23,379 bases of DNA. Origin: a virus. Each line of letters begins with the position of its first letter. Positions within the stretch are counted from its first letter, which is position 1. Below are positions 10,301 to 19,107 of the stretch, in pieces. The stretch spans positions 1 through 23,379 of IMG/VR virus record IMGVR_UViG_3300020710_000036; one strand, 5' to 3'. Under the pieces are notes generated by a model. The model did not search any database. It was not told where the DNA came from and was given only the letters and a program-made list of their open reading frames with translations. Made by a program: the position numbers and the translations under genes.

Positions 10301-10330
10301 TTGACATTATTTTTTATTGTGGTATAAATA
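10301..10330 (+). promoter_or_regulatory. Composite sigma70/late promoter
   Basis: TTGACA (10301-10306) and TATAAA (10323-10328) are 16 bases apart; the -10 is also a perfect T4-type late element TATAAATA (10323-10330). It starts just after pstS and drives the terminator-containing leader, and possibly the downstream small gene and tRNA-Trp. Confidence 0.7.
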
Positions 10331-11867: not shown

Positions 11868-11896
11868 AATAATAGTTACGGGAAGGTCTGCGTTTG

Positions 11897-11904
11897 TATA
11901 AATA
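11897..11904 (+). promoter_or_regulatory. Late promoter of first GIY-YIG gene
   Basis: A perfect TATAAATA lies 14 bases before the ATG at 11919, with GGAG at 11910-11913. Short complementarity (TTTGT with ACAAA) surrounds it, but no strong hairpin like those of the other two GIY-YIG genes. Confidence 0.65.
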
Positions 11905-11918
11905 TAAATGGAGACAAA

Positions 11919-12467
11919 ATGTTTTATTTTATATACAAAACTACAAATAATATAAATGGAAAATATTATATTGGCTGTCACAAAACAGCCAATATAGATG
12001 ATGGATACATGGGTTCTGGAAAGGCATTATTAAAAGCCATAGAAAAATATGGCAAGCATAATTTTACAAAAGAAATATTGATTTATTGCACAACAATTGA
12101 TGACATGTTTGAAAAAGAAAAAGAAATAGTCAATGAAAGTGTAGTAAATGATGAAAATTCATATAATTTAAAAATAGGTGGTTCATCTAATTTTTATTAT
12201 GTTAATAAAAATAAATTAAATCATAAAACAAATCAACATCTGAAACATGCTGAAAAGTTAAAAAACGATCCAGAGTATGCAAAGCAATTTAGCAAAAAAA
12301 TGAGTATTGCTAATAGAAAAAAAGAACATAAAAAAACGGAAAAACAAAAAGAATCTGCAAAAAAAGTTATGACATTATTAAATGAAAAAAGAAAAAATAA
12401 TAGAAATCATACAGTAGAAACAAAAGTTAAAATTGCAGCATCAGTAAAAAAAAAGATGGGACGATAG
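11919..12467 (+). CDS. GIY-YIG homing endonuclease (copy 1, 182 aa)
   Basis: The N-terminus MFYFIYKTTNNINGKYYIGC is a GIY-YIG nuclease domain (IYK ... YYIG), followed by the DDGYMGSGKALLKAIEKYG segment shared by the free-standing phage GIY-YIG family. The C-terminal half is lysine-rich and helical, fitting a DNA-binding tail; NUMOD3-type motifs are weaker than in copies 2 and 3. Such enzymes cut DNA near their own gene so that it is copied into related phages. The stop codon lies inside the tRNA-Cys gene (10-base overlap), so the coding region abuts a tRNA as expected for insertion at a conserved site. AT content is higher than in neighbours. Transcribed from the late promoter at 11897. Confidence 0.9.
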   Translation: MFYFIYKTTNNINGKYYIGCHKTANIDDGYMGSGKALLKAIEKYGKHNFTKEILIYCTTIDDMFEKEKEIVNESVVNDENSYNLKIGGSSNFYYVNKNKLNHKTNQHLKHAEKLKNDPEYAKQFSKKMSIANRKKEHKKTEKQKESAKKVMTLLNEKRKNNRNHTVETKVKIAASVKKKMGR

Positions 12468-13064: not shown

Positions 13065-13113
13065 CCTCGAATGTATAAATAGTAATGTCAATAAAACTAT
13101 TATACATTCGAGG
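13065..13113 (+). promoter_or_regulatory. Late promoter inside RBS-sequestering hairpin
   Basis: Arms 13065-13083 and 13096-13113 pair over 18 bases with one bulged T. The left arm contains a perfect TATAAATA (13074-13081); the right arm ends in the GAGG of the ribosome-binding site of the GIY-YIG gene at 13119. A transcript begun at the late promoter would start near 13087, in the loop, and could not form the hairpin, whereas read-through RNA would. Confidence 0.85.
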
Positions 13114-13118
13114 GCAGC

Positions 13119-13748
13119 ATGTTTTATACGATTTATAAAATTACTAATATCATAAACAACAAATATTATATTGGTATGCATCAAACTGAAAATATAAATG
13201 ACAATTATATGGGTTCTGGTAAACTTATTAAAATAGCCATACAAAAATATGGAATTGAAAATTTTAAAAAAGAAATATTACATATATTCGATAACGAAAA
13301 AGATATGAAAAATAAAGAAAAAGAACTCGTTGTTTTAGATGAAATGAGTTATAATCTCTGTGATGGCGGGAAAGGTGGATTTGGATATATTAATCGTACA
13401 GGATTAAATAATAATCACAAAGATAAAGAAGCAATATATGAAAAGGTATCAAAGTCTCTATCTGGCAGACAATTACCACATGTATCTTCTCTTCTTAAAG
13501 AAAGACATGAAAATGGATTATTTAAAAAAACATATTTTGGTTCTCGTGGGGAAATTGACAAATTAGCTTTAGAAAAAGCACACTCACCAGAATCTAATGC
13601 AAAACGCATTAAAACATATCGAGAAAAAGAACACCAAAAAGGTGAAAAAAATTCTCAATTTGGTAAACCAAGAAGTGAAGAAACTAAACAAAAAATAAGA
13701 GAATCTCTGGCAAAAACCAGAGAATTAAAAAAATTATCAACAATTTAA
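13119..13748 (+). CDS. GIY-YIG homing endonuclease (copy 2, 209 aa)
   Basis: MFYTIYKITNIINNKYYIGM is the GIY-YIG nuclease core, followed by NDNYMGSGKLIKIAIQKYG and the conserved GGKGGFGYIN. The C-terminal segment GEKNSQFGKPRSEETKQKI is a NUMOD3-type DNA-binding motif. It is clearly paralogous to the copies at 11919 and 15286. The stop at 13748 is one base before a tRNA-like remnant, and tRNA-Asp lies just upstream, so the gene is wedged between tRNAs. Expression should be late, controlled by the promoter-in-hairpin at 13065. Confidence 0.92.
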   Translation: MFYTIYKITNIINNKYYIGMHQTENINDNYMGSGKLIKIAIQKYGIENFKKEILHIFDNEKDMKNKEKELVVLDEMSYNLCDGGKGGFGYINRTGLNNNHKDKEAIYEKVSKSLSGRQLPHVSSLLKERHENGLFKKTYFGSRGEIDKLALEKAHSPESNAKRIKTYREKEHQKGEKNSQFGKPRSEETKQKIRESLAKTRELKKLSTI

Positions 13749-15226: not shown

Positions 15227-15280
15227 TGTCCCAGTTGTATAAATAGTAGTAGAGTAAATCTATTTCTTACAACTGGGACA
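15227..15280 (+). promoter_or_regulatory. Late promoter inside hairpin upstream of GIY-YIG copy 3
   Basis: Perfect 13-bp arms, 15227-15239 and 15268-15280, with TATAAATA at 15238-15245 crossing the left arm into the loop. The right arm contains GGGA, the only ribosome-binding-like sequence before ATG 15286. A late transcript would begin near 15251 in the loop and escape the hairpin. Confidence 0.85.
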
Positions 15281-15285
15281 TACAT

Positions 15286-15984
15286 ATGTTTTATACAATC
15301 TATAAAATTACTAATAAAATAAATGGCAAATATTATATTGGTAAACACCAAACTACCAATCTAAATGATGGGTATATGGGAAGTGGAAAAAATGTAAAAA
15401 GAGCAATTGCCAAATACGGCATTGAAAATTTTACAAAAGAAATATTACACACCTATGATAATGAAGCAGATATGAATGCTGCTGAAAAAAAATTAGTTGT
15501 TATAAGTGAAGAAACCTACAATTTATGCGAAGGCGGAAAAGGTGGGTTTAGTCATATTAACAAAAATAATCTATCTGTAAAAAATTTAAAAAATCCAAAT
15601 GTTAGAAAAGTTGCCACTAAAAATTCCAATAAAAAAAGAATAGAAAATTTTAATAATAATACAGTGTTAAAAAAACAGTGGGAAGATAATATATCTAATA
15701 GTTTAAAATCTTATTATAAAACACATTCTGGAACTTTTACAGGAAAAAGACACCCAAAGGAAATTGAAAATAGAATTGCTGAAAAGTTAAAAATAACAAA
15801 TAAAGGCAGCGGTAATCCAAATTTTGGAAAATGTTGGATTAAAAATGTAAAAACAAAAGAATATGGAATGATATTAAAATCTGATTTAAATTATTGGATT
15901 TCTCTTGGGTGGGAACTTGGACAAATACGAGAAAATGGTATTCCAGTAAAATTGAAAAATAATCAAGACGGTAAGGCACAGTAA
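15286..15984 (+). CDS. GIY-YIG homing endonuclease (copy 3, 232 aa)
   Basis: MFYTIYKITNKINGKYYIGK is the GIY-YIG core; NDGYMGSGKNVKRAIAKYG and CEGGKGGFSHIN match copies 1 and 2. The C-terminal part has NUMOD3-like motifs (FTGKRHPKEIENRI, GSGNPNFGK) and then a segment KEYGMILKSDLNYWISLGWE that fits a DNA-contacting module. The last codons (GKAQ, stop) are encoded by the first copy of the 81-bp repeat at 15970, so the C-terminus was rebuilt or created at that junction. It sits between tRNA-Pro and the repeat, with late expression expected from 15238. Confidence 0.92.
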   Translation: MFYTIYKITNKINGKYYIGKHQTTNLNDGYMGSGKNVKRAIAKYGIENFTKEILHTYDNEADMNAAEKKLVVISEETYNLCEGGKGGFSHINKNNLSVKNLKNPNVRKVATKNSNKKRIENFNNNTVLKKQWEDNISNSLKSYYKTHSGTFTGKRHPKEIENRIAEKLKITNKGSGNPNFGKCWIKNVKTKEYGMILKSDLNYWISLGWELGQIRENGIPVKLKNNQDGKAQ

Positions 15985-17108: not shown

Positions 17109-17137
17109 TTGACAAATTTGTCAAATATAAGTATATT
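17109..17137 (+). promoter_or_regulatory. Sigma70-type promoter with palindromic -35 region
   Basis: TTGACA (17109-17114), 17-base spacer, TATATT (17132-17137). The -35 box is half of a perfect palindrome TTGACAAATTTGTCAA, which could be an operator. tRNA-Asn follows at 17154. Confidence 0.75.
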
Positions 17138-17153
17138 AAGAATATAAGGTTAT

Positions 17154-17229
17154 TGCTTAGTAGCACAGCGGTAGTTGCGTCGGTCTGTTAAACCGAGGGT
17201 CGTAGGTTCGAATCCTACCTAAGCAGCCA
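17154..17229 (+). tRNA. tRNA-Asn(GTT)
   Basis: 76 nt with CCA. Acceptor TGCTTAG/CTAAGCA perfect, anticodon arm TCGGT-CTGTTAA-ACCGA (GTT), T-arm GTAGG-TTCGAAT-CCTAC, discriminator G. Confidence 0.94.
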
Positions 17230-17245
17230 TTAACATACAATGTTA

Positions 17246-17283
17246 TATAAATACATATAGGTTCGAATAAGGAGACCTATATG
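17246..17283 (+). promoter_or_regulatory. Late promoter plus start-codon hairpin of HNH gene
   Basis: TATAAATA (17246-17253) is followed by a 9-bp inverted repeat CATATAGGT (17254-17262) / ACCTATATG (17275-17283) whose right arm contains the start codon and whose loop holds AAGGAG. A late transcript would start near 17259, losing most of the left arm and freeing the start. Confidence 0.75.
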
Positions 17284-17790
17284 AGTAAGCAATCTGAAAA
17301 TGTAATTAACTGGCGTAAAAGAACAAAACAAAAAATTGTTCAATCAATGGGTGGGTGTTGCCAAATTTGTGGATACTTCAAATGCGATGCGGCACTTGAA
17401 TTACACCACATAGACCCAACAAAAAAAGAATTAAGTTTTTCTTCAATTAGAGCAAATCCAAAATCAGCAGAGGCAATTAAGGTTGAATTAATAAAATGTA
17501 TTTTATTATGTTCTAATTGCCATAAAGAAATTCATAATGGTTTAATATCTATTCCAGAAAATTATGTGCAATTCAATGAAGAAATATTTGATGGTTGGAA
17601 AATTGAAAGAAAAGAACGCAAAGAAAAATTTAAGAAAGATAAAGTATGGCGTCAAAAGATGTTCTTAACCAATCAAGAAGTTTTTGAAAAGTTAACAACA
17701 ATCTATAATGGTAATAAATCTGCTATGGCAAGGGATTATGGAGTTACTGAAACTACTATTAGAAAAAGGTTAAAGATGTTAGAACGGTAG
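17281..17790 (+). CDS. HNH homing endonuclease (169 aa)
   Basis: An HNH nuclease: zinc-binding CQICG near residues 27-31, the catalytic LELHHID about 40-46, and CSNCHKEIH near 80, giving the CxxC...HH...CxxCH pattern. The C-terminal 50 residues contain SAMARDYGVTETTIRKRLKM, a helix-turn-helix that would read the DNA target. It lies downstream of tRNA-Asn within the tRNA cluster and has its own late promoter and hairpin, as the GIY-YIG genes do. Its 3' end overlaps the convergent DUF4337-like gene by 12 bases. Confidence 0.92.
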   Translation: MSKQSENVINWRKRTKQKIVQSMGGCCQICGYFKCDAALELHHIDPTKKELSFSSIRANPKSAEAIKVELIKCILLCSNCHKEIHNGLISIPENYVQFNEEIFDGWKIERKERKEKFKKDKVWRQKMFLTNQEVFEKLTTIYNGNKSAMARDYGVTETTIRKRLKMLER

Positions 17791-19027: not shown

Positions 19028-19107
19028 TGCATAACTATTTATCTAGTTTTTATTTTACAAGTATGGTAAACTTGCTGCAAGTTTACCAGTTTAGGAACAG
19101 TTATGCA
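19028..19107 (+). promoter_or_regulatory. Nested hairpins around the start of the second HNH gene
   Basis: TGCATAACT (19028-19036) pairs with AGTTATGCA (19099-19107), which contains the ATG at 19103. Inside lies a perfect 10-bp hairpin, GGTAAACTTG-CTG-CAAGTTTACC (19065-19087). RNA entering from upstream would hide the start codon. No plus-strand TATAAATA is seen between the arms. Confidence 0.65.
19036..19043 (-). promoter_or_regulatory. Late-type promoter of membrane operon
   Basis: The minus strand reads GATAAATA, the same variant as at 6552, 45 bases before the ATG at 18991. Confidence 0.5.

Follow-up and report, generated by a model that had tools for sequence, protein, structure and literature searches.

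A putative late-only translation switch at a free-standing HNH endonuclease gene among the tRNAs of a T4-like phage

In this work we have analysed a stretch of phage DNA of 23,379 nt, here called the window, and in particular the leader of a free-standing HNH endonuclease gene within the tRNA cluster of this T4-like phage. The gene is probably subject to a cis-acting switch which would permit its translation only late in infection. According to the proposed model, an early RNA reading through the neighbouring tRNA-Asn would carry both arms of a hairpin, burying the AUG and the spacer after the Shine-Dalgarno sequence. The phage late polymerase would instead start the RNA about 6 nt after the late promoter box TATAAATA, inside the left arm of the hairpin, and the late RNA would retain only a 4-bp stub, making ribosome loading on the HNH mRNA possible. 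Such a late-only switch had been proposed in a preliminary description of the window, and it is well supported by the anatomy of the leader, by predicted folding, by the relatives of the gene and by precedent in phage T4.

Results

The HNH gene and its surroundings

The 169-aa product of the gene scores above the cut-off for Pfam PF13391 (HNH_2) and PF01844 (HNH) and is also matched by PHROG HNH families. A comparison of its HNH profile with solved structures gave no match. Its start codon (17281-17283) is backed by the opening MSK or MSR common to the homologues. The gene stands alone, flanked by a tRNA-Asn gene and by a gene in the opposite orientation, and a tRNA lies within 150 nt upstream of the HNH gene in 28 of the 37 relatives examined. 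Judged from its sequence and setting, this is a free-standing HNH gene of the homing type, with homing itself putative. The 43-kb contig of the same phage encodes contractile-tail proteins (tail sheath and tail tube) and a head-tail adaptor. The features of the region are as follows.

17109..17137, + strand: sigma-70-like promoter, TTGACA-17-TATATT, with 11 of 12 consensus matches; precedes tRNA-Asn
17154..17229, + strand: tRNA-Asn (gtt), found with ARAGORN; ends 51 nt upstream of the HNH start codon, on the same strand
17231..17245, + strand: palindrome TAACA-TACAA-TGTTA, abutting the late promoter, sole copy in the window; candidate operator or small hairpin
17246..17253, + strand: TATAAATA, T4-type late promoter by its sequence and its placement before ORFs; predicted start at about 17259
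17254..17262, + strand: left arm of the hairpin, CATATAGGT, directly 3' of TATAAATA; contains the predicted late start
17263..17274, + strand: hairpin loop, TCGAATAAGGAG, 12 nt by sequence
17269..17274, + strand: Shine-Dalgarno sequence AAGGAG, inside the loop, 6 nt before the AUG
17275..17283, + strand: right arm of the hairpin, ACCTATATG; its last three bases are the HNH AUG
17281..17790, + strand: HNH endonuclease gene

Could an early RNA reach the HNH gene? The sigma-70-like promoter is its likely source; weaker sites of this kind occur in similar number in shuffled sequence, and the function of the promoter is putative. Since this promoter precedes tRNA-Asn and no terminator-like site was found on the + strand between it and the HNH gene, an early RNA that reads through from the tRNA-Asn unit into the gene is plausible. 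The -35 element of the putative promoter is spanned by a perfect 16-bp palindrome, TTGACAAATTTGTCAA (17109-17124), which looks like an operator. A second HNH gene (ATG at 19103) has a strong 11-bp hairpin (19064-19088) just 5' of its Shine-Dalgarno sequence and no TATAAATA. This hairpin leaves the ribosome site uncovered and resembles the case of seg43 (PMC2988022).

The leader hairpin and its predicted folding

It had been claimed that TATAAATA is directly followed by a 9-bp inverted repeat whose right arm includes the start codon, and the sequence at 17246-17283 confirms this. The two 9-nt arms (17254-17262 and 17275-17283) are 100% complementary and lie 12 nt apart. The 30-nt hairpin has a predicted energy of -10.4 kcal/mol, with a z value of -4.6 against dinucleotide shuffles, none of which (0/200) was equally good. 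The window has nine perfect repeats with arms of 9 bp or more and a loop of 3-20 nt, compared with a mean of 2.6 in shuffles. The chance rate of such repeats in the shuffled window is about 0.11 per kb, so that a chance repeat falling on a given start codon would be roughly a 1-in-several-hundred event. The box TATAAATA was found six times in the window against 3.8 expected, an excess which is not significant; five of the six copies lie at most 62 nt before the start of an ORF, a zone comprising about 3.6% of the window positions.

Late promoters of T4 start transcription about 6 nt after the box. With the corresponding start at 17259, five of the nine bases of the left arm would be lost, so the earlier statement that the late start removes most of this arm is slightly generous, a 4-bp stub being left. 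Accessibility was computed with the whole tRNA-Asn or its processed 3' end as the long RNA. In the read-through RNA, or in that beginning at the processed tRNA end, the AUG is closed and opening the region from -14 to +3 is predicted to cost 8.1-10.2 kcal/mol, compared with 4.1-5.1 kcal/mol for RNA starting at 17258-17260. The predicted probability that the AUG is unpaired rises from about 0.01 in the read-through RNA to about 0.7-0.8 with the start at 17259. The relief is partial, because the stub remains in the late RNA, where it keeps the bases 3' of the Shine-Dalgarno sequence paired. When the left side was replaced by shuffled sequence, an equally large switch arose in about 4.5% of cases. 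We infer that the change in folding would delay synthesis of the protein to the late phase.

Three GIY-YIG genes of the window are also preceded by TATAAATA and a hairpin:

11886..11915, + strand: leader hairpin of GIY-YIG gene 1, with TATAAATA inside it (11897-11904) and the Shine-Dalgarno sequence in the right arm; ATG at 11919
13065..13113, + strand: leader hairpin of GIY-YIG gene 2, with 14-bp arms (13065-13078 and 13100-13113) and TATAAATA at 13074-13081; ATG at 13119; its relatives covary strongly
15227..15280, + strand: leader hairpin of GIY-YIG gene 3, with 13-bp arms (15227-15239 and 15268-15280) and TATAAATA at 15238-15245; ATG at 15286; included in the covariation test

A switch-type hairpin is thus found at all four TATAAATA-led endonuclease genes of the window (7.0-17.9 kcal/mol), and the TATAAATA site at 10323 has no such switch. 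The HNH switch is, by the folding model, softer than those of the three GIY-YIG genes, for which the predicted gains are 7.3, 17.9 and 14.5 kcal/mol. The late HNH RNA is predicted to start inside the left arm; the GIY-YIG late starts lie past the whole left arm.

A search for the late sigma factor gp55 in the 43-kb contig of this phage, itself a fragment, did not find it. Among the 19 contigs tested, gp55 is present in four, namely those of loci L042, L062, L063 and L143, and none was found in a number of long contigs in which the HNH relatives are not preceded by TATAAATA. The contig of L169 has the TATAAATA hairpin, yet it gave no gp55 hit; these contigs are fragments, and absence from them proves nothing.

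Start-site hairpins in the relatives

The same HNH gene and leader are found on five contigs. In the closest relative, L110, whose protein is 62% identical, both arms are kept exactly and the loop is shorter. In L125 (57-59% identical) seven of the nine pairs are retained in register. Four of these seven involve GU changes, and the promoter box of L125 can also pair with the start region. The close relatives of this hairpin number only three, and there is no double compensatory change among them. A switch, of 6.6-17 kcal/mol, is also predicted at every other HNH relative that has a TATAAATA-like box. In the more distant HNH genes the arms of the start-site hairpin are arranged differently: in L139 and L143 the promoter box serves as the left arm, and in L141-L169, L185, L384, L394, L411 and L412 the left arm lies upstream of the box. 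As far as the leader sequences indicate, the HNH relatives have rebuilt the start-site hairpin with at least three pairing geometries.

In the GIY-YIG family, 88.6% of the cells of the stem are paired across 22 relatives, 63 cells are double-changed compared with 17.4 in shuffles, and the covariation score is 0.597; shuffles give 0.207, and slid controls do not exceed 0.173. This covariation of the sequences is direct evidence of RNA-level pairing in a neighbouring family which has the same putative promoter logic. An absence of such repeats from the relatives had been named beforehand as evidence against the switch; start-site hairpins are present in both HNH and GIY-YIG relatives, and the comparison did not refute the proposal.

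Several other elements were noticed in these leaders. GIY-YIG leaders L026-L064, and those at 13065-13113 and 15227-15280 in the window, often open directly after the preceding gene with a conserved CATAAGCGC/CACAAGTG, and the loop of hairpins of this type contains a conserved GTARTR..CAATAARACTATT, beyond what pairing alone needs. On contigs G003 and G009 (L191-L207) several unrelated-looking GIY-YIG genes have in common a leader which extends for about 60 nt beyond TATAAATA and has a stem of its own, e.g. CGTAGGTCGCGGGAGACC...CACCTACTCTAG; it may represent another kind of leader RNA of endonucleases. A manA RNA (RF01745) lies between the tRNA and the HNH hairpin leader in L148 (1108-1315), and abiF RNA (RF03085) matches occur near HNH genes in L133 (2387-2423) and L185 (2415-2451).

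A palindrome in the HNH leaders

Directly 5' of the late promoter, the HNH leader contains TAACATACAATGTTA. With tRNAs masked, 12 of 54 HNH-family leaders contain the pattern TAACA-N5-TGTTA, these leaders being in part related by descent; shuffles give 0.29, and none of the 42 GIY-YIG leaders has the pattern. The spacer is 5 nt in every case, the searches having allowed 0-10 and in a subset 0-14. The carriers are the window (17231-17245) and L110, L113, L114, L125, L140, L376, L384, L393, L394, L411 and L420. The palindrome lies over or near the late promoter, or immediately 5' of the start codon, and it occurs as well in phages without TATAAATA at that place. As it also forms the tip of the start-site hairpin in L376, L384 and L394, its action may be at the DNA level, the RNA level or both. 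It is conceivable, and we say so tentatively, that the HNH family has in TAACA-N5-TGTTA a second, family-specific control element, which could be an operator for self-repression, on top of the independently rebuilt hairpins. The analogy with the operator of I-TevI, which represses its own late promoter through an operator lying over the promoter (PMC2988022), suggests that the HNH endonuclease may repress itself via the palindrome. When the whole collection was scanned for the palindrome together with TATAAATA, chance matches predominated: no more than 5 of the 118 hits were HNH, at three distinct loci.

A further motif, GTTCGA/TCGAAC, the core of the tRNA T-loop, was observed in 18 of 54 HNH leaders compared with 0.94 expected (tRNAs masked) and in 8 of 42 GIY-YIG leaders compared with 0.56 expected. 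It often makes up one arm of the start-site hairpin, and its sites include 17261-17268 in the window, L125, L131, L133, L138, L185, L370, L376 and others. A copy of the T-arm of tRNA-Asn was considered as the origin of the hairpin, the two having TAGGTTCGAAT in common; this was rejected, as across loci the leaders match their own tRNA no better than other tRNAs, and the likeness is no more than a curiosity.

Discussion

Could the inverted repeat be a DNA operator over the late start, bound by the HNH protein or by another regulator? The protein has a helix-turn-helix-like tail, the arms span the predicted late start, and autorepression of I-TevI through an operator over its late promoter has been reported (PMC2988022). 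Moreover, a different palindrome, that at 17231-17245 beside the promoter, recurs through the family with its spacing unchanged. However, the hairpins of the relatives are unrelated in sequence and geometry while they occupy the same place and always involve the ribosome site, and the arm changes in L125 give GU pairs, which can form in RNA and leave no DNA palindrome. We consider it unlikely that the repeat is an operator.

It might also be supposed that the promoter is real and the hairpin a chance repeat in AT-rich sequence, with no regulatory role. The near-chance frequency of TATAAATA in the window would agree with this, as would the left-side shuffle, which gave a p of only 0.045 for the HNH gene. 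Coincidence is nevertheless very improbable, given that the hairpin sits on the start codon and is conserved in L110, and that its layout is repeated at each of the four TATAAATA-led endonucleases of the window and in most relatives. That the hairpin serves mainly the processing or the stability of the RNA where tRNA and mRNA join, and not the timing of translation, we find scarcely credible. The HNH gene does directly follow a tRNA, and TAGGTTCGAAT is common to the loop and to the T-arm of tRNA-Asn, but a cut at the 3' end of the tRNA leaves the complete hairpin on the mRNA, the likeness of leaders in general to their own tRNA does not exceed that to other tRNAs, and the Shine-Dalgarno sequence and the AUG are consistently involved.

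The late-only translation switch, which is the reading we favour, has precedents. In I-TevI, I-TevII, I-TevIII and SegB of T4 and in MobE of Aeh1 the ribosome site lies in a hairpin from which late transcripts escape by means of a late promoter (PMC2988022, PMC3014915), and further T4 genes, among them e, soc and 49, come under the same control (PMC3014915). Truncation of a ribosome-site hairpin by a late promoter is already known, then, for both GIY-YIG and HNH endonucleases, and since these precedents from T4 and Aeh1 cover both families, the HNH switch is not a new mechanism. The view that the unrelated HNH and GIY-YIG families share one logic was correct, yet it had been documented in those two phages.

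The leader of T4 segB, which we read directly, is of almost identical design. Like the HNH gene, segB is located among tRNAs and has a late box, CATAAATA, which adjoins a hairpin containing the Shine-Dalgarno region, with the AUG at its end. It is, however, a free-standing GIY-YIG gene, and its promoter box is the left arm, whereas in the HNH leader the box precedes that arm. Aeh1 mobE and T4 I-TevIII, by their descriptions, are like our gene in being of the HNH type, with the ribosome site in a hairpin and a late promoter nearby (PMC2988022, PMC3014915), but mobE resides in a ribonucleotide reductase locus and I-TevIII in an intron, while the gene studied here follows a tRNA. In T4 I-TevI and I-TevII, as in the HNH gene, the promoter is placed so that the late RNA loses the left arm, and reading the I-TevII leader CCTCGTATAAATATGAATACGAGG directly we found that the box lies between the two arms, an arrangement shared with the GIY-YIG genes of the window. 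These two enzymes are encoded in group I introns and their late start removes the entire left arm, whereas the HNH gene keeps a stub. T4 e, soc and 49 obey the same truncation logic but are lysis, capsid and recombination genes, and they show that this logic is not specific to mobile elements.

Our analysis extends a mechanism known from a few genes of the T4 group to many uncultivated phages and to two families of endonucleases that are unrelated to each other, one of which shows strong covariation. The results suggest that late-only control has repeatedly been imposed on mobile nucleases located in tRNA clusters. The natural variants, in which the whole arm is lost, half of the arm is lost or the promoter serves as an arm, provide material on how much truncation suffices.

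Is the design a speciality of mobile endonucleases? When TATAAATA-led genes of two gp55-bearing contigs were scored, with the endonuclease class judged by eye from motifs, the median switch was 6.6 kcal/mol for 22 endonucleases and 2.1 kcal/mol for 24 other genes (Mann-Whitney p 0.003), and the capsid and sheath genes of these contigs had little or no switch. A scan of all viral contigs for a promoter box paired with TATTTATATG across the Shine-Dalgarno sequence gave at least 120 matches, compared with 31 in the permuted control, and among the matches listed most genes are virion-protein-like; the design is therefore not endonuclease-specific. What stands of the supposed speciality is the stronger switch at endonucleases in the two gp55 contigs, and its exclusiveness does not. 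The notion of convergent acquisition by mobile endonucleases is likewise plausible, but such cases were documented before and are not restricted to these genes. The promoter-hairpin design is, as these leaders indicate, a general late-gene device heavily used by endonucleases, and caution is needed in that it is no hallmark of mobile elements. A virion-like gene family with the TATAAATA-TATTTATATG pairing (L213-L332, e.g. L225, L226 and L229) was observed on many viral contigs.
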